This document shows positions 7,095-62,075 of a stretch of 64,000 nt of DNA, piece by piece. A program made the position numbers and the translations under genes. A model generated the notes under the pieces. The model saw nothing but the letters and a program-made list of their open reading frames with translations. It searched no databases and was not told the origin of the DNA. Numbering within the stretch: position 1 is the stretch's first letter; each line of letters begins with the position of its first letter. The stretch is from the NCBI GenBank assembly GCA_944472135.2, contig OX235263.1:4757517-4821516 (forward strand). The letters run 5' to 3'. Source of the stretch: Trichobilharzia regenti. Taxonomy: Eukaryota > Platyhelminthes > Trematoda > Strigeidida > Schistosomatidae.

Positions 7095-7370
7095 GCAATC
7101 GCCAAAGCAGCTCTGGACCTAGGTTTTGTGTTTGTTGACATTTGACGGATACAACTCAGTGTGCACTCATCCAAGAACTAGGCACATTACATTGGGTGCT
7201 ACTATCTATGCTATAGTTCTACATGAAGTCAGTAATGAGCACAAATAACTAATTGAGAAAGCCTCTTACTACGGCAGTATGTGACCAGGGTTCGAATCTA
7301 AAAGTGGAAGAGAATTCCCTCGAGATAACAGGTACGCCTTGTTGACGAGTGCAAACTAGTGCAAAATGAA
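7095..7370 (+). mobile_element. SINE-E remnant
   Basis: A B-box-like GGTTCGAATCT at about 7290 is followed by the SINE-E body signature (GCCTTGTTGACGAGTGCAAAC), shared with 32095-32120 and, inverted, with 24405-24445. Confidence 0.5.
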
Positions 7371-8930
7371 TTTTTTTGATGTGATTGTGTTCTCTGAGCT
7401 AGCTGGATGGTTTATTTGTGAAGCTTTCATTGCCCGTCCTACTAGGCAACACCTTCAGCTCATACTTCAATTCGAATTGAAGTGAGCTATTAGATTTCAC
7501 CACGATTTTGTTAATCATCTCTCCTGATGGGTGACCTTCAACATAGTGATTAGTTGTTTTTGTGTGTTTTCAGACCCTCTAGGCTACTGGTATTGGAACT
7601 GATTGTCTCCTTGACTGAAACTTTGACCCTCTGTGTGTGGAGTTTCCTTCTTATCGGTTGATAAATTTAGTCGGTTGATTGATGAAAAGTAAATTCTACC
7701 TAATCTTTTTTCTCCTTTTTTCCGTCTCTTCATTGGTATTATTCTGTCTTCTTAATTGAAATATTTTGCATTTTCAACCCTCTTGTTCTCTACCCCCACC
7801 CGATTTAATTTCTACACCTCACTACCACTTTAATTGACCTGACTAACGCTCAATTTCTAGTCATTTATGTTACGTCATCCAACTTAATTGCTCAATTTCA
7901 GTTCTAATTTAAATGGCATTATTCTCTACCCTGCTTCTACTTAGTCTCTACCTGTAATTACCTCTGTTGCTACCCTGACCTAAGTTGAAACATTTTAGTC
8001 AATTAAATTACGTCATCTAACTTACTAACTAACTCAATCTTAGTTGCTTTAGTTGCTGTCTAATTAACCTTGTTTCTATATATTAGACCATTCTTGTATT
8101 ACCTGATCAATTATCTAAACTTGACAAACCTCATGTACACACGTACACACAAATAATTGTATATATAAATGTGATCGCACAGCTGTGTGAATGAAATCGC
8201 CACCGAAAAGAGTCTCTTCGCTGAACGTCTTCTCTTTTTCATATGATTGATGATTCACTGGAATACCAAGCTTCTAAAATTTCTCCAGCATTCTTGTTGT
8301 TTCCTCTGTCTAATATTTGAACGTTGGTTGTCCCAGTCTAATTGATGTCAGTGGTTGTCTGTATGCAGCGATATGAGCGAGGTAGTGGATGTCATCTCTT
8401 TTGACGGCTAGGTTATGTTGATGGATGTGAAGACGAAGGAGATGTCCACTTTGGTCAATGTAGTGTTCTTTGTTGTCGTTGCACCTTATATTTTAGATGA
8501 CGTTAGTTTTACCTTCTCATCTTTCGCTGTGAAGTCTTTGGTTTACATAGAGCTGAGTGAAGTGATTCTGTTGATTTGTGTGCGACGTCGATTCCTAAAA
8601 ATTTAAAGAGTTTAGCAGTGATTTCTGAGATTTCCTTTATATATGGTAAGGCGACTTTTTTGTGCTTTCTTTGAGGCCTTTTGGTTTGATAGGTTGGCTT
8701 AAGGGTATATTTCTTTTGATGAAATTCCATGGATATGCATTCTTTTAGAAGACGTTCATGAAATATCTTTCTTCAATTTTCTGTAAGGTAGGAATGCTGC
8801 AATGAGTCCTGGCCTTCTAGAGTAGTTCTTGTATGCAATTCCTTTTGTGTTATTCGATTGTTGCTGTTGTACGAAATGTAGTTCCAGCGCTGCAATCATT
8901 TAAAATCAATTCCGTATGCACTACGATAAC
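7371..8930 (-). mobile_element. PLE-B copy interrupted by a PLE terminal repeat
   Basis: Minus-strand Penelope-like element. From 8730 downward it reads KKVALPYIKEISEITAKLF, then FLGIDVAHKSTESLHSALCK (C-terminal end of RT and linker), then a broken GIY-YIG nuclease to about 8260, and the 3' tail at 7371-7686. The segment 7687-8243 is a separate insertion; removing it restores the colinear order seen in the copy at 1081-1485. Confidence 0.65.
7687..8243 (+). mobile_element. PLE-A terminal repeat inserted in PLE-B
   Basis: A 557-bp unit, also found at 58745-59480 (plus) and 60945-61425 and 62076-62320 (minus), where it flanks the best PLE-A copy. It ends in the lineage's terminal motif CCGAAAAGAGTCTCTTCGCTG at 8202-8222. 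It interrupts the PLE-B tail at a position that is continuous in the 1081-1485 copy. Confidence 0.6.
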
Positions 8931-11224: not shown

Positions 11225-11385
11225 ACATTTATATACAATTGGTGGACGGTGGCTAGCAGTGGAATCCAGGATGTGCATTTCGTCCTAATTGGGACTCGTC
11301 AGCTGGATGTACCTGAGACCGAGCACTTCGTTCCCAATCAATTGACGGGAAAATCAAAAAATTCAATTCAATAATATACATTTAT
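11225..11385 (-). mobile_element. Sm-alpha SINE fragment, foldback junction
   Basis: Positions 11238-11320 are the minus-strand ribozyme half of Sm-alpha; at about 11318 the sequence flips and continues as the plus-strand tail (GAGACCGAGCACTTCG, GACGGGAAAATC, AATTCAATTC). The two halves are adjacent only in a foldback copy. Confidence 0.75.
11264..11308 (-). ncRNA. hammerhead ribozyme, intact core
   Basis: Read on the minus strand: stem I ATCCAG, core CTGACGA, stem II GTCC-CAATTA-GGAC, core GAAA, stem III TGCACA (one pair closing four bases), ATC cleavage triplet, stem I CTGGAT. All conserved core bases of a type I hammerhead are present and both stems pair perfectly. The expected product is self-cleavage after the C of ATC. 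Sm-alpha hammerheads are known in schistosomes. This copy is in sense orientation in the 36-kb intron of the Ig-domain gene. Confidence 0.85.
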
Positions 11386-20420: not shown

Positions 20421-20984
20421 GAGACATAAATTTAAAACCAGTCACGAAGATGTTTGTCAGGAGACACAATTATATCATGATTCATCGAGAATTTAAATGA
20501 GTTCATTTCTTCATAATAAAACCTGAGCTGAAGGGGTATGTTGTCTAGAAGGATGACGATCACAGTAGTGCAATTAAATCAACCGGCTACTCATATAAAA
20601 CAACTCAATCAAAATTCATGAAGTTATAACTTAAGAGCCTTAAAATAGATAATCAAAAACAAATGTTGGTTGAAACTTTTTGTTGTTCTGAATATACTGT
20701 AGGGATAATTCAATTTCTAGATTCATTAGGAAATCACATCATTGGAAAAACCAATTAAAACCATGTAGTACTGGAGTACTTAAAATCAACAACATTCGTA
20801 CAAACAAAACATTAAAAACAGTTGAAAATTAGTCTAGTGCCTAGTAGTAACTGACTACTTGATGAAGTCGACTGCAGTTCTATTGAGAAGTTATGATGTT
20901 CACACACCAGAGCTCCAAGTTAAAATGTGAGAACAAATACTCACCGACCTCGATCGGCTGTTGGTCACAGAATATACATTGTGA
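20421..20984. other. unassigned
   Basis: AT-rich; nothing supported. Confidence 0.3.
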
Positions 20985-21320
20985 ATTGGAACTAATTGGA
21001 ATTTTGATTGGATACTAGTTTCTAGTGTGATGTGTCTAGTCGCCTCTTTGGTGCAGACTAAATTCTATCAGTCAGTCAGGTTCACAATGTATCCACCACT
21101 TTAGGTGCCATCACGGTGCCTATTGATTAGATGATATCAGATAGCTGGAGGCAATCGGCACGAAGCCCTGACTTCATCTTGGCTCTTGCTAGTCAGTAAG
21201 GCGTATCTGCAACCTTGAAGAAACTAATGTTCGTCCTTCTGAGATTTGAACCCTCGTCGCCCAGTGAGTGCTGCAGTCAGAGACGTTATCACTGAGCCAT
21301 TCCAATAAATTGAAATTATT
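20985..21320 (-). mobile_element. SINE-E
   Basis: On the minus strand a head with TGGCTCAGTGATAACG (A box) and GGGTTCAAATCTCAG (B box) is followed by the E body. The tail end (20985-21065) carries AATTTTGATTGGATACTAG and GTGATGTGTCTAGTC, shared with 24205-24245. Confidence 0.65.
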
Positions 21321-21829: not shown

Positions 21830-22020
21830 AATTGGTTACAAGGATTTCATAATCAGCCAACATCAGTAAGAAACCACTGAAAGACCTGTTAGTACTGGAC
21901 AGCAGTTTCGTCAGCCTAGTTTGGGCCTCCTCGCACTCCGCACCCATTGGGGTTTGAACCCACGACCTTCTGGTCGCAAGGCGAGCTCGTAAACCACTAA
22001 GCCACTGGGACCCGATACAA
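21830..22020 (-). mobile_element. SINE-C copy
   Basis: Minus strand: head CAGTGGCTTAGTGGTTTACG (A box) and GGGTTCAAACCCC-like B box, then the ribozyme tail, here decayed (GTCCAGTAC retained, stem II degraded). Confidence 0.65.
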
Positions 22021-22174
22021 TGACCAGTCCATGAATTTCAACTTCAGCCAACTGATTACATAGCCTGACCACTGGCCAATGTCTTCGACGAGTATTTGTT
22101 CTCACATCTGACCTGCTGTACCTCACTTGTCATAGCTTCGCAAGCAAGTCCCTGAACACTTGACTATCAATCTG

Positions 22175-22550
22175 ATGATCCTATTCAAGTAGGAAGTTAC
22201 CTGGGGTTCTAGTGAGACGTCATGACCAGTAGAGTGCAGCAGGTCGGGTGTGAGGACAAATAATCACTGGAGATATTGTCTACTGGTCGAGCAATTTAGT
22301 GAATTGGCAGAAGTTGTAATTAATGCATTGCACATTGTATAGGATCCCAGTAGTGGCTTAATGGTCTACAAGCTCGCTAGCCTTGTAACCAGCAGGTAAC
22401 CTGGATTTGAACTTCAGTGGGGTGGGTGAGTACCGATGAAGAGTCCTTAACCACAACAAAACAGCTCTCCAGTACTCTGTGTTTTTGTTTTCCAATGGTT
22501 CTTCAACCAATTTCAGCTCATGATGAAATCCTGTCACCAATAAAAATTTT
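22175..22550 (+). mobile_element. SINE-C with 5' module
   Basis: The 5' module (GACCAGTAGAGTGCAGCAGG) is at about 22190-22320, the head at 22350 (AGTGGCTTAATGGTCTACAA) and the decayed ribozyme (GTACCGATGAAGAGTCC ... CAGTAC) at about 22427-22482, ending with the AACCAATTTCAGCTCATGA tail. Confidence 0.65.
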
Positions 22551-24119: not shown

Positions 24120-24570
24120 GGCTTCATCGCCTCTTCGAACAAGCTGGTCTAATAGACAACTGGTAATACCTTTTACTATAGTTTTATTTAGCTATAACAC
24201 TGGTAGGTGTTTTGATTGGACATTAGTAACTAGTGTGATGTGTCTAGTCCTCTTTTTTGGTGCAGACTGATTTCTGTCAGTCAAGTTTTGTAATGTGGTC
24301 ACCATTCTAGGTAGCTTGCCATCACAGTGCACATTGATTTGATGATATTAGATGGTTGGAGGCAATCGGCCACAGGAAGCCTTGGCTACACCTAGTTTTC
24401 GTGCTAGTTGGCACTTATTAGTCAGCAAGGCGTATCTGAAGCCTTGACAGAACTTATGTTCCTTCTGAGATTCAAACCCTGACTGATACAATTCAGTCTG
24501 TACCAATGAGAGGACTAGACACATCACACTAGTTACTAGTGTCCAATCAAAATATCCGCCACAGTCCTAC
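24120..24570. mobile_element. SINE-E foldback
   Basis: 24160-24480 is a minus-strand SINE-E from tail to B box; at about 24484 it flips into a plus-strand tail (CAGTCTGTACCAATGAGAGG ... GTCCAATCAAAAT). The junction equals, in reverse, that of the copy at 31985-32400. Confidence 0.7.
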
Positions 24571-31844: not shown

Positions 31845-31984
31845 GTTAGTTTTGTTTCTACGAGTTGACCACCTAGAGAATCATTGAAGACCAACCAGAG
31901 AGTGCTGGGCAGCGGTTTTATCCCGCATACACTCGATGATTCCTAAACAAGGATGAAATAGCTATCCAGTACTCTATGGCAGGT
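31845..31984. mobile_element. SINE-C tail foldback
   Basis: 31850-31925 is a minus-strand SINE-C tail; it flips inside the ribozyme region and returns as a plus-strand tail (GGATGAAATAGCTATCCAG, TACTCTATGG). Arms are diverged. Confidence 0.55.
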
Positions 31985-32400
31985 TTTCAATAGTAACTCG
32001 TGTAATGTGTCTAGTCCTTGGTGTTTGGTGCAGACTGAATTTTATCAGTGAGGGTTTGAATCTCAGAAGGGATATGAGTTCCATCAAGTCTGCGTATACG
32101 CCTTGCTGATGAGTGCAAACTATCACGAAACCTAGGTGCAGCCAAGGCTTGCTGTGGTCGGTCACCTCCAACCATCTAATATCATCAAATCAATGTGCAC
32201 TGTGATGGCAAGCTACCTAGAATGGTGGCCACAATTCAGTCTGCACCAAAGAAAGGACTAGTCAGATCACACTAGTTACTAATGTCCAATCAAAACACCT
32301 ATCAGTGTTATGGCTAATCAAAACTATAGTAAGAGGTATTAACACTCGTGTATCAGACCAGCTTGTTCTTACAAGTGATAAAGCCATCCATGGAGAAGCT
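31985..32400. mobile_element. SINE-E foldback
   Basis: 31985-32045 is the inverted tail; from about 32048 a plus-strand SINE-E runs from its B box (GGGTTTGAATCTCAGAAGGG) through body and tail (TTACTAATGTCCAATCAAAA) to about 32345. It has the same junction as 24120-24570 in reverse. Confidence 0.7.
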
Positions 32401-32689: not shown

Positions 32690-33010
32690 TGGCTTGTAAG
32701 GATTGGTTTTGTATTTTTATGAGTTGACCATAGTTTTCAGTTAGAGAGCCACTGGAAACCAACCAGGGAGTACTGAGCAGTGGTTTCATTCCCAGTGGCT
32801 GAAGGGTATACGAACTAGCTTGCCTTGTAACCGGAAGGTCCTGGCTTCGAACAGTAGGGGTGGGTGCGTACTGCTGATGATTACTAAATCAGGCTGAAGA
32901 ATTAGCTCTTCAGTACTCCCTGGTTGGTTTTTAATGGTTCTCTAATTGATATCAATCCGCGGGGGCAAACTCGTGAAAAGAAAACTAACCTTTACAAACC
33001 AAACTGTAGG
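32690..33010 (+). mobile_element. SINE-C foldback, full unit
   Basis: 32690-32806 is an inverted tail joined to a nearly complete plus-strand SINE-C: head from 32810 (B box CTGGCTTCGAAC), ribozyme at 32868-32916, tail to 33010. Confidence 0.7.
32868..32916 (+). ncRNA. SINE-C hammerhead, decayed but C3 kept
   Basis: Stem I GTACTG pairs with CAGTAC at the end; the core CTGATGA is intact directly after stem I. Stem II and the GAAA box are degraded (GAAG), so cleavage is not expected. It shows that the family's ancestor had the C3 base. Confidence 0.55.
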
Positions 33011-33359: not shown

Positions 33360-33725
33360 AAATTTAACGTTATGACCAGTGAGGTCCATACAGTCAAGTG
33401 TGCGCGGATGGATGTCCCACCGATGACATTAGTTGGTGATTGCGCTAAATCACTAATTGGTAGAAATTAGAAGTCATGGGCTGGTCAGTGAATTGGGTCT
33501 TAGTGGTTGAATGGTTTGTTGGCTAGCTTGACTTGTAACCGAAAGGTTCTGGATTTCGAACCATAGTGGTGAGTGCGTACTCCCAATGATTCCCAAACTA
33601 GGATGAAACAGCTGTCCAGTACGCCCTGGTTGGTTTTTAATGGTTCTCTAAGTAATATCAATCTATGGTCAAACACGTAAAAACAAATCCAACTCTTACA
33701 AACCAACTATTAAAAAATAATTATT
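33360..33725 (+). mobile_element. SINE-C with 5' module
   Basis: 5' module from 33360 (TATGACCAGTGAGG), head at 33500 (TTAGTGGTTGAATGGTTTG, B box GGATTTCGAACC), then a ribozyme remnant (GTACTCCCAATGA ... GAAACAGCTGTC-CAGTAC, 33567-33622) and the AATATCAATC tail. Confidence 0.65.
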
Positions 33726-41089: not shown

Positions 41090-41225
41090 TGCCTTTTGAC
41101 CCGGCGTTCCCAGGTTGTGTCATATTTGCGTACTACTGAAGAGTCCAAAAGTAGAAGAGAACAGCTGTTCAGTACTACCTGCTTTTCAAGTCAGTTTTAA
41201 AATCAAGCCTTAATCACTGTTTATA
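41090..41225 (+). mobile_element. SINE-C ribozyme tail
   Basis: Worn head, then GTACTA-CTGAAGA-GTCC ... GAACAGCTGTT-CAGTAC (41130-41177): core C3 is present, the GAAA box is shifted to AGAA. Tail follows to 41220. Confidence 0.5.
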
Positions 41226-49424: not shown

Positions 49425-49639
49425 CTGCAAAAAGACGTAGAATATTGACCAGGATGAATATGAGGAGAAACTAAAGCTAATGACGTAACTCTTTCAACTG
49501 ACTAATAAATTAGTTTGAGTTTGAAAAATTCGATCCTTTTGCGTGGCGTTTACTAATAAAAATTCAATGGCCTGACCTTTGATCTATGGTAGTAAACCTA
49601 TTTCATGAGCTGAAATCAGTTATAAAACGGTTGGAAAAC

Positions 49640-49790
49640 CCGAGGGCACTTGATAGCAGTTTCCTACTGCTATTCTGGGGGTCTTCAGGTGGACGAAGCC
49701 TCCGGGGTTTGAAGCTATGACCTTCCGGTTAGAAAGTGAGCTTGTAGATCATTCAGCAACCAGAACTCATTCCATTGTCCGACTGTCGCC
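49640..49790 (-). mobile_element. SINE-C copy
   Basis: Minus strand: head near 49760 (GGTTGCTGAATGATCTACAA), B box region TCATAGCTTCAAACCCC, decayed ribozyme, tail. Confidence 0.5.
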
Positions 49791-50020
49791 AGTTCGTGAT
49801 GCATAGCGTGACCACCAGATTTGTCAGCAGCGAGCTACGATCCTCTTATTTGACTTGGTAAACGCGTGCAGTTGAAGGGGCGAAAACTAGAACGAAATCA
49901 CTGTTCAATACTCTCTGGCTTTCTAGAGGTTCTTAAAGTGGTACGGGCCCACCAAAATCAGACCTGTAGACAGTCAAATCATTGCAGACCAGCATTTGAC
50001 TATTTAGATCATTTTCATTG

Positions 50021-52250: not shown

Positions 52251-52642
52251 GAATTGAATTTTTGATTTTCCCGTCGAATGATTGATTGGACCGAAGTGCT
52301 CGGTCTCAGGTTGACATGTCGGCTTCTTGTGAAGATGCTTCGACGATGTCTGGGTATTTAATTAGTATACAATTGGTGGATGGTGGCTAGCAGTGGAATC
52401 CAGGATGCGCATTTCGTCCTATTTGGGACTCGTCAGCTGGATGTACCCGCATTTCTCAGTGAGTGATGATGTTCCCACCGAGGCGCATCCTGGATTCCAC
52501 TGCTAGCCACCATCCACCAATTGTATACTAATTAAATACCCAGACATCGTCGAAGCATCTGCACAAGAAGCCGACATGTCAACCTGAGACCGAGCACTTC
52601 GGTCCAATCAATCATTCGACGGGAAAATCAAAAATTCAATTC
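52251..52642. repeat. foldback of Sm-alpha, 160-bp arms
   Basis: Arms at 52251-52410 and 52483-52642 are reverse complements with one mismatch by eye; the spacer is 72 bp. The left arm plus spacer contain the intact minus-strand hammerhead. Confidence 0.85.
52398..52442 (-). ncRNA. hammerhead ribozyme, intact core
   Basis: Minus strand: ATCCAG, CTGACGA, GTCC-CAAATA-GGAC, GAAA, TGCGCA, TC, CTGGAT. All core bases are present. Its 3' half (52398-52410) lies in the left foldback arm and is therefore complementary to the right arm, so a long transcript could hide it in a hairpin. Confidence 0.85.
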
Positions 52643-52783
52643 AATAATTAATATGACCCGTTGCACAAGAGGTGGCTCTCGTGGCCCAAATGGTCTAGTG
52701 GATAACGCTTTGGCGTTTGAAACTATGGGTACTGGGTTCGAGCCTCGGTGGGAACATCATCACTCACTGATAAATGCAGGTAC

Positions 52784-52828
52784 ATCCAGGTGACGAGTCC
52801 CAAATAGGACGAAATGCGCATCCTGGAT
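52784..52828 (+). ncRNA. Sm-alpha hammerhead, C3 to G
   Basis: ATCCAG, GTGACGA, GTCC-CAAATA-GGAC, GAAA, TGCGCA, TC, CTGGAT. Perfect except the first core base, G instead of C. Confidence 0.75.
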
Positions 52829-53025
52829 TCCACTGCTGGTCAACATCCACCAATTGTATGTTAATCCTCTTCTTTGAAAGTACTTTTGCAAAACACTTTT
52901 CAAACGCTTAACATATTATGCATATAATTTTTACAGATCACTGAGGTTTAAAAGCTTCTTATATTGACGTCATCATTTCTGCCCTGTCCTAAGCGTCAAC
53001 CTTAATCATTCGAATTGAGTCATGA

Positions 53026-56874: not shown

Positions 56875-57195
56875 TTCAGATTTTCCTGTCGATTAATTTA
56901 ACCGAAATGCTCGGTGCCAGGTGGGACCCGATCCAATGGTCTTTGAGTTCTAACTTCCGCCAATTCACGACATAGCGCGACCACTTCGCGCGACCAGTGG
57001 CTCAATGGTCTACGAGCTCGCCTTGTAACCAGAAGGTCCTGGGTTCGAACCCCCGTGGTGGGTGCGTACTGATGAAGAGTCCCAAACTAGGACGAAACAG
57101 CTGTCCAGTACTCCCAGGTTTTCCAGTGGTTCCCTAACTGATGTCAGCTCATGATTAAATCCTCCATGCAATCAAACAAAATCCCTACAAAAACC
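56875..57195 (+). mobile_element. chimera: Sm-alpha tail joined to SINE-C
   Basis: 56875-56935 is an inverted Sm-alpha tail (GAAATGCTCGGTGCCAGG); from about 56940 follows the best SINE-C copy: head AGTGGCTCAATGGTCTACGA, B box GGGTTCGAACCCC, ribozyme at 57066-57111, tail AACTGATGTCAGCTCATGAT to 57190. Confidence 0.75.
57066..57111 (+). ncRNA. SINE-C hammerhead ribozyme, C3 to A
   Basis: GTACTG (stem I), ATGAAGA (core, expected CTGAAGA), GTCC-CAAACTA-GGAC (stem II), GAAA, CAGCTG (stem III, one pair with four loop bases), TC, CAGTAC (stem I). Same element order and lengths as the Sm-alpha ribozyme, with different stem I and III sequences that still pair perfectly. Only core position C3 is wrong. 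Copies at 32868, 41130 and 43848 have C there. Confidence 0.75.
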
Positions 57196-57224
57196 AATAC
57201 TTGAAAATTATAGGTAAAATTTAT

Positions 57225-58744: not shown

Positions 58745-59480
58745 TTGTATTCTACTTTCTTGTCTTCTACCCTCATCCGGGTTAAAATCTACACCTCACT
58801 ACCACTTTAATTGACCTGACCAACGCTCAATTTCTAGTCATTTATGTTACGTCATCCAACTTATTTGCTCAATATCAGTTCTAACATAAATGGCATTATT
58901 ATCTACCCAATTTCTACTTAGTCTCCAACTGTAACTATCTCTGTTGTTATCTTGACCTAGGTTGAAACATTTTAGTCAGTTATATTACGTTGTCTAACTT
59001 ACTAAATCAATCTTACTTTAGCTGCTGTCTAATTAACCTTTGCATGGAGGATTTAATCATGAGCTGACATCAGTTAGAGAACCACTGGAAAACCAGGGAG
59101 TACTGGACAGCTGTTTCGTCGTAGTTTGGGACTCTTCAACAGTACACACCCACCGGGATTCGAACCCAAACTAGGACGAAGCAGCTGTCCAGTACTCCCA
59201 GGTTTTCCAATGGTTCCCTAACTGATGTCAGCTAATGATTAAATCCTCCATGCAATCAAACAAAATCCCTACAATACCAATACTTAATAATTAACCTTTG
59301 TTTCTATATTAGATCATTCATGTACACACACATCGGACACAATTTTTACTCATTCGTACTCATGCGTTCAGACTAAATGAATTCATGGGTTGCTTGAAAA
59401 TCCCATTTAGTCCTATGAAAAAGAGAAGACGTTCAGCGAAGAGACTCTTTTCGGCGAATTCATTCACATAGCTGTCCTTA
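58745..59480 (+). mobile_element. PLE-A 5' terminal repeat with SINE-C insertion
   Basis: 58745-59042 and 59289-59340 are the terminal-repeat sequence of 7687-8243; the end motif appears inverted at 59430-59450. A SINE-C foldback (59043-59288) interrupts it with a 12-bp target duplication. Confidence 0.65.
59043..59288. repeat. SINE-C foldback with 12-bp target duplication
   Basis: Arms 59043-59130 and 59165-59252 (88 bp each) are reverse complements with a few mismatches; spacer 34 bp with a B-box remnant. The insertion is framed by AATTAACCTTTG at 59031-59042 and 59289-59300, so it entered as one already folded-back unit or was made during insertion. Confidence 0.8.
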
Positions 59481-60944: not shown

Positions 60945-61425
60945 TCAAATTATATATAATTATTTGTGTGTGTGTACATGAGGTTTTCAAGATTGGATTA
61001 TTCATCAGGTAATACAAGGATGATCTAATATAGAAACAGGGTTAATCAGACAGAAACTAAAGCAACTAAGATAGAGTTAGTAAGTTAGACAACGTGATAT
61101 AACTGACTAAAATGTTTCAACCTAGGTCAAGATAACAACAGAGATAGTTACAGTTGGAGACTAAGTAGAAATTGGGTAGATAATAATGCCATTTATGTTA
61201 GAACTGATATTGAGCAAATAAGTTGGATGACGTAACATAAATGACTAGAAATTGAGCGTTGGTCAGGTCAATTAAAGTGGTACTCAGATGTAGAAATTAA
61301 ATCGTGTGGGGGTAGAGAACAAGAGAGTTGAAAATGCAAAATATTGTAATTAAGAAGACAAAATAATACTAATGAAGATACAGAAAAAATGGTTGGGTAG
61401 AATTTACTTTTCAAGTAATAAGATA
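60945..61425 (-). mobile_element. PLE-A 3' terminal repeat, inverted
   Basis: Reverse complement of the unit at 7687-8160 and 58760-59340. With 58745-59480 it frames the PLE-A protein, so the element has terminal repeats in inverted orientation. Confidence 0.65.
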
Positions 61426-61554: not shown

Positions 61555-61740
61555 GACAACTTCTTACTCTGTAGACGACTCGTCAGCTGGATGTACCTGC
61601 ATTTTTCAGTGAGTGATGATGTTCTCTCCGAGGCTCGAACCCAGTACCCATATTTTCGAACGCCAAAGCGTTATCCACCAGACCACTTGGGCCACGAGAG
61701 CCACCTCTTGTGCAACGGGTCATATTAATTATTGAATTGA
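61555..61740 (-). mobile_element. Sm-alpha unit, head and half ribozyme
   Basis: Minus strand: tRNA-like head GGCTCTCGTGGCCCAAGTGG, B box GGGTTCGAGCC, to the ribozyme's core CTGACGAGTC, where it stops at about 61565. Confidence 0.75.
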
Positions 61741-62075
61741 ATTTTTTTTTGATTTTCCCGTCGATTGATTGGACCGAAGTGCTCGGTCTCAGGCTGATAT
61801 ATTGGCTTCTTGAGCTAGGTACTTGGTTCGAGCCTCGGTGGGAACATCATCACTCACTGAGAAATGCAGGTACATCCAGATGACGAGTCCCAAATAGGAC
61901 GAAATGCGCATCCTGGATTCCACACTGCTAGCCACCATCCACCAATTGTATACTAATTAAATACCCAGACATCGTCGAAGCATCTGCACAAGAAGCCGAC
62001 ATATCAACCTGAGACCGAGCACTTCGGTCCAATCAATCGACGGGAAAATCAAATAAAAAATTCAATTCAACCAAG
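61741..62075. mobile_element. Sm-alpha foldback
   Basis: 61734-61816 inverted tail, then a plus-strand unit (B box GGTTCGAGCC, ribozyme 61874-61918, tail to 62071). Arms are the outer 80 bp. Confidence 0.75.
61874..61918 (+). ncRNA. Sm-alpha hammerhead, C3 to A
   Basis: ATCCAG, ATGACGA, GTCC-CAAATA-GGAC, GAAA, TGCGCA, TC, CTGGAT: only the first core base deviates. Confidence 0.75.

Follow-up and report, generated by a model that had tools for sequence, protein, structure and literature searches.

SINE-C, a probable second hammerhead-bearing SINE family of Trichobilharzia regenti, and the apparently recurrent replacement of its core residue C3

Among the described systems closest to the repeat considered here, Sm-alpha and Sj-alpha are SINE-like retroposons that bear type I hammerheads (Ferbeyre 1998 and Laha 2000, as cited in PMC8490949 and PMC2770079), Sm-alpha is a family reported active, and tRNA-Gln-TTG SINEs are reported in S. 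mansoni (PMC2770079). The repeat, which we call SINE-C, resembles Sm-alpha in having a tRNA-type head, a type I hammerhead whose stem II is GTCC/GGAC, copies both scattered and in tandem, head-to-head pairs, and variation at core residue C3. The two differ in that the head of Sm-alpha is tRNA-Gln(TTG)-like, as read from the loop in copies of the window (the whole stretch of 64,000 nucleotides that was analyzed), whereas that of SINE-C is tRNA-Thr-like. Sm-alpha here has stem I ATCCAG/CTGGAT, the palindrome ATGCGCAT and units of 329-336 bp; SINE-C has stem I GTACTG/CAGTAC, the palindrome ACAGCTGT, units of 394 and 400 bp, and a tRNA part that joins the ribozyme without a linker. A further likeness is to the metazoan non-LTR retrozymes (PMC7229834), with which SINE-C has in common the type I hammerhead, a unit of 150-450 bp, tandem multimers, target-site duplications of more than 4 bp and a GC content of 49.7%. 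Unlike the retrozymes as described there, SINE-C has a clear tRNA-like head and many dispersed copies, often in inverted pairs.

The S. mansoni W-elements W25.2, W26.2 and W27.2 (PMC8490949) carry hammerheads that are, like SINE-C, schistosome hammerheads of weak similarity to Sm-alpha, and three of five tested variants of W25.2/W36.2 cleaved (PMC8490949). Unlike SINE-C, the W-elements are described as satellite-like families. In S. haematobium, 16 small-RNA clusters are RF00163-like and seven of these lie inside predicted SINE/tRNA repeats (PMC5993326); the likeness to SINE-C is that a blood fluke has hammerhead-like RNA within SINE/tRNA repeats, and the clusters could be relatives of SINE-C or Sm-alpha. 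Among the papers listed on hammerheads of schistosomes, flatworms, SINEs and retrozymes, no title or abstract opening names a tRNA-Thr SINE with a hammerhead or recurrent loss of C3. SINE-C may already be present, unnamed, in repeat libraries or in the Rfam full set, or may equal a W-element family (PMC8490949).

The window (C2:4757517-4821516) belongs to an assembly of 954,079,586 bases (954 Mb) in 548 contigs, which was also the genome searched. It holds seven RF00163 matches above gathering, five of Sm-alpha type and two of SINE-C type (57066 and 59145). The former of these two SINE-C copies had been proposed to contain a hammerhead in a preliminary description of the window, which suggested a check with the type I covariance model. 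Rfam RF00163 bears this out with 50.8 bits (E=3e-10; gathering 34) at 57066-57111 of the plus strand, the whole model (1-45) being covered with no non-standard pairs; canonical copies elsewhere score up to 54.1 bits. The letters also agree with the stem I, stem II, GAAA and TC before the cleavage point that were described. Stem I is formed by GTACTG (57066-57071) and CAGTAC (57106-57111), and stem II by GTCC and GGAC around the loop CAAACTA; GAAA (57094-57097) is followed by CAGCTG, T and C17 at 57105. The core reads ATGAAGA (57072-57078), and the replacement of C3 by A is, as the description had it, the only core fault: all stems pair, and the CUGANGA core is otherwise present. Stem III had been given as one pair with a four-base loop, and this needs correction, as there are two pairs (A-U and C-G) enclosing AGCU. 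In a dimer, the 8-nt palindrome ACAGCTGT could also pair as a stem III of 8 bp. Because of the C3-to-A change, this copy is probably inactive. An alternative core register in this copy, CTGATGA three bases earlier, was rejected because it puts stem II out of register and is absent from other copies.

Table 1. Features of the SINE-C copy at 57066 and other SINE-C copies in the window
Feature	Position	Strand	Basis
Inverted Sm-alpha tail piece upstream of the 57066 copy	56879..56922	-	84% match
Inverted SINE-C leader piece	56952..56983	-	84% match
tRNA-Thr(TGT)-like head of SINE-C	56992..57063	+	Sequence; matches at six other window places
Box A-like TGGCTCAATGG	56998-57008	+	Motif match
Box B-like GGTTCGAACCC	57042-57052	+	Motif match
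Possible outer stem I strand GGGT, partner TCCC at 57112-57115; corresponds to the GGTRC/TCC flank common with Sm-alpha	57060..57063	+	Alignment
Type I hammerhead, C3 to A	57066..57111	+	RF00163 50.8 bits; pair counts
Third core position, with A in this copy and C in most SINE-C members; recurrently replaced	57072	+	Copy comparisons
C17, predicted cleavage point (after this base) in an intact copy	57105	+	RF00163 alignment; cleavage inferred
SINE-C 3' tail	57112..57203	+	Common to 59040-59099 (-), 59196-59259 (+) and others
Second SINE-C copy, hammerhead 59100-59145, C3 to T and one stem II mismatch	59040..59168	-	RF00163 39.7 bits
Head-to-head partner of the 59145 copy: hammerhead 3' half and tail	59165..59293	+	Sequence match
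SINE-C copy, head to head with the 22280..22532 copy	21841..22071	-	Sequence match
SINE-C copy: leader, tRNA part, hammerhead (A3), tail	22280..22532	+	Alignment
SINE-C hammerhead relic	31926..31990	+	Profile search
SINE-C copy, hammerhead relic at 32868 with C3	32792..32955	+	Profile search, alignment
SINE-C copy, hammerhead relic at 33577	33525..33673	+	Profile search, alignment
SINE-C hammerhead relic with C3	41127..41191	+	RF00163 27.4 bits at 41130-41175, below gathering
SINE-C copy, hammerhead relic with C3	43771..43895	+	Profile search, alignment
SINE-C copy, head to head with 49856..49942	49603..49760	-	Sequence match
SINE-C hammerhead relic and tail	49856..49942	+	Profile search

From its putative anticodon loop, CTTGTAA, the head of SINE-C reads as tRNA-Thr(TGT)-like. 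No tRNA is called by ARAGORN in the 64-kb window. Two motifs in the head, which we take to be box A and box B, are matched again in the 394-bp unit described below, and the tRNA part directly adjoins the ribozyme with nothing between them. For the possible outer stem I pairs, two-sided changes occur in 4 of 4, but only 60.5% of cells pair. The 3' ends were compared across 17 fetched arms.

A profile search of the window found about 12 SINE-C pieces. The majority sequence of 11 aligned hammerheads is GTACTG-C-TGAAGA-GTCC-CAAACTA-GGAC-GAAA-CAGCTG-TC-CAGTAC; C is the plurality at position 3 (5 of the 10 copies with a letter, against two with A and three with T), and none of the 11 is fully canonical. 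The relics at 32868, 41130 and 43848 do retain C3, as had been noticed before, each with other faults in stem II or GAAA. Head-to-head SINE-C pairs occupy 59040-59293, 21841-22532, 49603-49942 and 31862-31990. An inverted 290-bp repeat (58750-59038 and 61040-61332, 92% identical) ends at most two bases from the first of these. Head-to-head junctions with tail pieces are likewise seen in the window copies of Sm-alpha at 52261-52865, 61577-62058 and 11232-11361, several of them falling in the T-arm or at the hammerhead. A third repeat family, at 32001-32329 (+), 24176-24529 (-), 20972-21292 (-) and 7233-7405 (+), has a T-arm-like motif, inverted ends and a hammerhead-like relic (stem I GCCTTG/CAAGGC, stem II GTGC/GCAC, palindrome CCTAGG, extra bases at the cleavage site); its 22 Rfam bits are at chance level alone, and a genome search gave 4,734 first-look candidates, 40 of which were scored.

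Genome-wide, the 35-nt core of SINE-C with C3 left free has 3,868 exact matches (1,966 + 1,902), and the reversed control has none; together with the Rfam E-values, this rules out a chance origin of the hammerhead. A at position 3 (A3) is carried by 1,484 of the matches, so that C3 stands in at most 2,384, G and T not being separated out. Intact copies have the CUGANGA and GAAA core with C17 before stem I, and canonical ones reach 54.1 bits in RF00163 once in L006 and 13 times in L039, and 53.5 in L008. The preliminary description had expected an ancestral C3 and had named a consensus lacking C3, or the stem II and GAAA pairing, as evidence against a ribozyme. C3 is in fact the commonest state of the family, and intact ribozyme sequences are abundant throughout the genome. 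An exact 22-mer of SINE-C has no match in the virus (viral_contigs) or prokaryote (genome_contigs) collections, nor has a 32-nt Sm-alpha string in viral_contigs; given the nature of these collections, the results carry little weight.

Copies occur both in tandem and dispersed. The array L039 holds 13 SINE-C hammerheads at an exact spacing of 394 bp, with 12 full units identical, and a second run has 13 hammerheads spaced at 400 bp (C1:21399729-21404563). The GC of the 394-bp unit is 0.497, and the unit thus lies within the size range of retrozymes at a GC below 50%. Sm-alpha likewise forms arrays, of 14 hammerheads (L105, G000:C1:23904600-23909900) and seven (L106, G000:C1:27637000-27639700), spaced at 329-336 bp. 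Among 47 head-to-head SINE-C pairs in the fetched loci, 25 are flanked by direct repeats of at least 8 bp (8-15 bp; 1.2% for mismatched flanks), although three of these 25 seem to duplicate others in the set. A pair flanked in this way is thus a single insertion, in which one outer end often falls at tail position 109-112 and the other near 69 or 77-82. As an idea only, the antisense arm of such a pair could mask the ribozyme in SINE-C RNA.

The replacement of C3 was followed beyond the window because three of its Sm-alpha hammerheads (52442-, 61874+ and 52784+) are identical over 45 nt save at C3 (C, A and G, respectively). Within the window, the C3 excess among 11 SINE-C copies loses significance once other columns are taken into account (P 0.028 for the single column, with equal variation in columns 28, 41 and 51), and that of Sm-alpha has P 0.00025 on five copies. 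A further 56 loci of C1 were fetched for SINE-C beside L001-L045, L019-L031 being omitted as duplicates of array L039. Loci after L008 all lie within about the first 23 Mb of C1 and came from the matches listed for the C3-free exact 35-mer, whereas extra copies within the fetched stretches were chosen independently of it; likely segmental duplicates, with near-identical flanks or copies, were kept (L013/L014, L064/L065, L084/L085 and L095/L097). From 187 profile matches, 167 spanned the hammerhead, 149 were distinct and 117 had the tRNA head; 114 of these have a letter at C3, which in 109 is A or C. The 117 tRNA-headed copies have C in 65, A in 44, T in three and G in two, with three missing, and 32 copies without the head have C in 22, A in seven, T in two and G in one. 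The change to A thus recurs in about 40% of SINE-C copies and does not look like random decay. The best reading is that C3 was hit during RNA-mediated copying, again and again and mostly from C3 sources, rather than passed on by ordinary inheritance.

Several other explanations have to be considered. First, full-length RNA must escape self-cleavage, so that cleavage-poor mutants may have been favored as templates and C3 lost in this way. In its favor, an intact hammerhead would cut the template, and dispersed copies need uncut RNA. But selection for any dead ribozyme should strike other core residues too, and among the 64 copies chosen independently of the 35-mer C3 is substituted in 28 of 61, against 17 of 64 for the unconstrained N7, 11 of 64 for U4, and 0-7 of 62-64 at the remaining positions (G5 7, A6 2, G8 5, A9 2, G12 5, A13 3, A14 3, A15.1 0, C17 4). 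C3 copies, moreover, remain the majority, and we regard this explanation as unlikely. The bias is also seen genome-wide: allowing up to one mismatch gives 7,190 SINE-C matches, or an average of 98 single changes for each of the other 34 positions (N7 alone accounting for at least 731, from 3,115 matches minus at most 2,384), the per-position figures of these searches being averages in both families. Sm-alpha shows the same excess of A. Its string with C3 free has 3,570 matches, with C 79, A 17, T 3 and G 1 among the 100 listed (counted by eye); up to one mismatch gives 5,929 matches, other positions averaging 69; and 100 distinct copies from 65 fetched loci have C in 73, A in 22, T in two and G in one, with two missing. 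Non-templated addition at the cleaved 5' end, considered as a source of A3, would alter the site beside C17, and C17 is not raised.

Second, C3 could be a mutation hotspot in DNA, or its variation an assembly error. Copies with A3 do become somewhat commoner with distance from the nearest neighbor (18/38 in the most distant third, 10/38 in the closest; Fisher test on A and C only, p=0.028). This speaks against an effect acting purely at insertion: part of the A3 states may date from later, or there may be few recent sources. Yet C3 lies outside CpG, the effect is common to two families with different stem I letters, and arrays keep the residue: all 34 hammerheads of three arrays (13 SINE-C, 14 and seven Sm-alpha) have C3, and neighboring inner units, with 0-4 differences elsewhere, never differ there. 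Each array is a single lineage, so that these are three observations and not 34. At L102 and L103, neighboring Sm-alpha copies at distances of 329 and 339 bp do have different letters at C3; with 82-83 mismatches elsewhere, they are not fresh DNA copies. The contrast with arrays suggests that DNA copying spares C3 and RNA-mediated copying does not, and we give a hotspot or an assembly error little credence.

Third, and less likely still, A3 could mark an old inactive subfamily, in which a single mutation was then inherited. A3 is indeed far commoner than T3 and G3 (44, three and two of 114 tRNA-headed copies), but tree and linkage contradict this account. On a tree of the 109 copies with A or C (65 C, 44 A), the A/C state requires 32 changes, against 34.4±2.7 in shuffles (47/200 at or below), and is thus random, whereas eight control sites, each omitted from its own tree, show subfamily signal, requiring 10-18 changes where shuffles require 24-38. 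Of 166 sites, C3 changes most often (37 times; the next has 20 and the median is 4). Nor is it linked to subfamily sites: its r2 to any variable site is at most 0.07, whereas the ten other sites with a minor allele of at least 0.3 reach 0.42-0.76. Recombination alone fails to explain this, because five site pairs straddling C3 are still linked across it (r2 0.14-0.36). Near-identical copies differ at C3 as often as all copies do, in 9/16 pairs with at most three other differences in about 170-180 nt and in 53% of all pairs; these close pairs share members and are therefore non-independent, and two of the seven concordant ones look like segmental duplicates. Among the 36 head-to-head pairs listed, 30 have both arms typed as A or C, and the arms agree in 15 and are discordant in 15. 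In Sm-alpha, the C3 state requires 22 changes against 22.3±1.5 in shuffles on a tree that includes a poorly aligned tail, which is no signal, and 13 against 11.7±1.1 on a tree of 53 tRNA-headed copies. Sm-alpha agrees with SINE-C in this but is not strong support, because about half of ten control sites lack signal too and at least ten sites change more than C3 in the poorly-aligned-tail tree.

The ribozymes of the two families themselves are probably related. Stem II, a nearly identical loop II (CAAACTA in SINE-C and CAAATA in Sm-alpha) and the flanks GGTRC...TCC are shared, and the hammerhead module thus looks homologous, derived from one ancestor with stems I and III changed and the folding kept. 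The common flank and loop II are where a tertiary contact between loops 1 and 2 may lie. In an alignment of 13 rows (eight SINE-C and five Sm-alpha, three SINE-C rows with core inserts or gaps being omitted), 86.3% of cells are paired, against 23-40% for slid structures, and two-sided changes keep pairing in 27 cells, against 12.1±2.4 in shuffles (0/500 reach 27). The 27 cells represent few events counted repeatedly, because they sit at six pairs of stems I and III and mostly separate the families; covariation within SINE-C alone is modest (14/500 shuffles reach its paired percentage). The earlier statement that the SINE-C hammerhead is not a diverged Sm-alpha copy aligned by chance therefore stands as regards stems I and III, which differ by pair-keeping changes, with the refinement that the module itself is not independent of Sm-alpha. 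That SINE-C is just such a diverged copy and no second family, as the homologous-looking module and weak matches of each profile to the other family (best E 1e-4 to 1e-3) might suggest, is scarcely credible, since tRNA head, linker and tail all differ, the two-sided changes fall at six pairs, and SINE-C is a family of its own with units unlike those of Sm-alpha in length. It lacks the tRNA-Gln head, the Sm-alpha tail and the unit of about 335 bp that define Sm-alpha membership. Rfam scores, compensatory changes and intact genome-wide copies thus support SINE-C as a second hammerhead family beside Sm-alpha, with traits of both SINEs and retrozymes, and uphold the original suggestion of a second tRNA-type SINE with a hammerhead.

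Taken together, SINE-C is very probably a tRNA-Thr-headed retroelement that bears a hammerhead, is predicted to cleave itself, and has had C3 replaced recurrently during RNA-mediated copying. Its life cycle would join the model of the Sm-alpha SINE with that of retrozymes (PMC7229834). Transcription from an internal promoter of Pol III type, formed by boxes A and B, would run through the type I hammerhead into a short tail, and intact copies, to judge from core and stems, would self-cleave after C17. In head-to-tail units such as the 394-bp array, cleavage would free unit-length RNAs, as proposed for metazoan retrozymes. Dispersed copies, in contrast, would come from RNA that escaped cleavage and was reverse-transcribed by the enzyme of a partner LINE. 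Energy folding is uninformative in this regard. RNAfold, which has no tertiary terms, prefers another fold for canonical SINE-C (-12.5 versus -6.6 kcal/mol for the hammerhead), but does likewise for Sm-alpha (-10.0 versus -5.5 kcal/mol), which is reported active; the RNA of a 137-nt SINE-C copy folds no better than shuffles (z=0.41).

Why C3 in particular is hit leaves two causes, an advantage of slow ribozymes specific to C3 or, more speculatively, a reverse transcriptase that misreads a modified C3. C3-U4-G5-A6 forms a uridine turn like that of C32-U33 in the tRNA anticodon loop, and tRNA-Thr is a known substrate for m3C32. It is conceivable, though we think it improbable, that C3 is chemically marked in the template RNAs of both hammerhead families, for example as 3-methylcytidine. 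Such RNA would escape self-cleavage because the mark blocks the C3-G8 pair, and the reverse transcriptase would misread the marked base, mostly as A but at times as T or G, or would pass over it. Arrest of reverse transcription, or misincorporation, is a described effect of m3C (PMC7969016).

As a second large SINE family that bears hammerheads and has intact units, SINE-C allows comparative study of a self-cutting motif in a retroelement, and touches the question of how an element spreads via RNA when that RNA cuts itself. The pattern at C3 is informative here, as thousands of natural insertions log events at one catalytic residue during copying, and RNA modification, selection for slow ribozymes and DNA mutation predict different measurable outcomes there. 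If C3 is indeed marked, the genome would be a permanent record of an RNA modification that gates a natural ribozyme.
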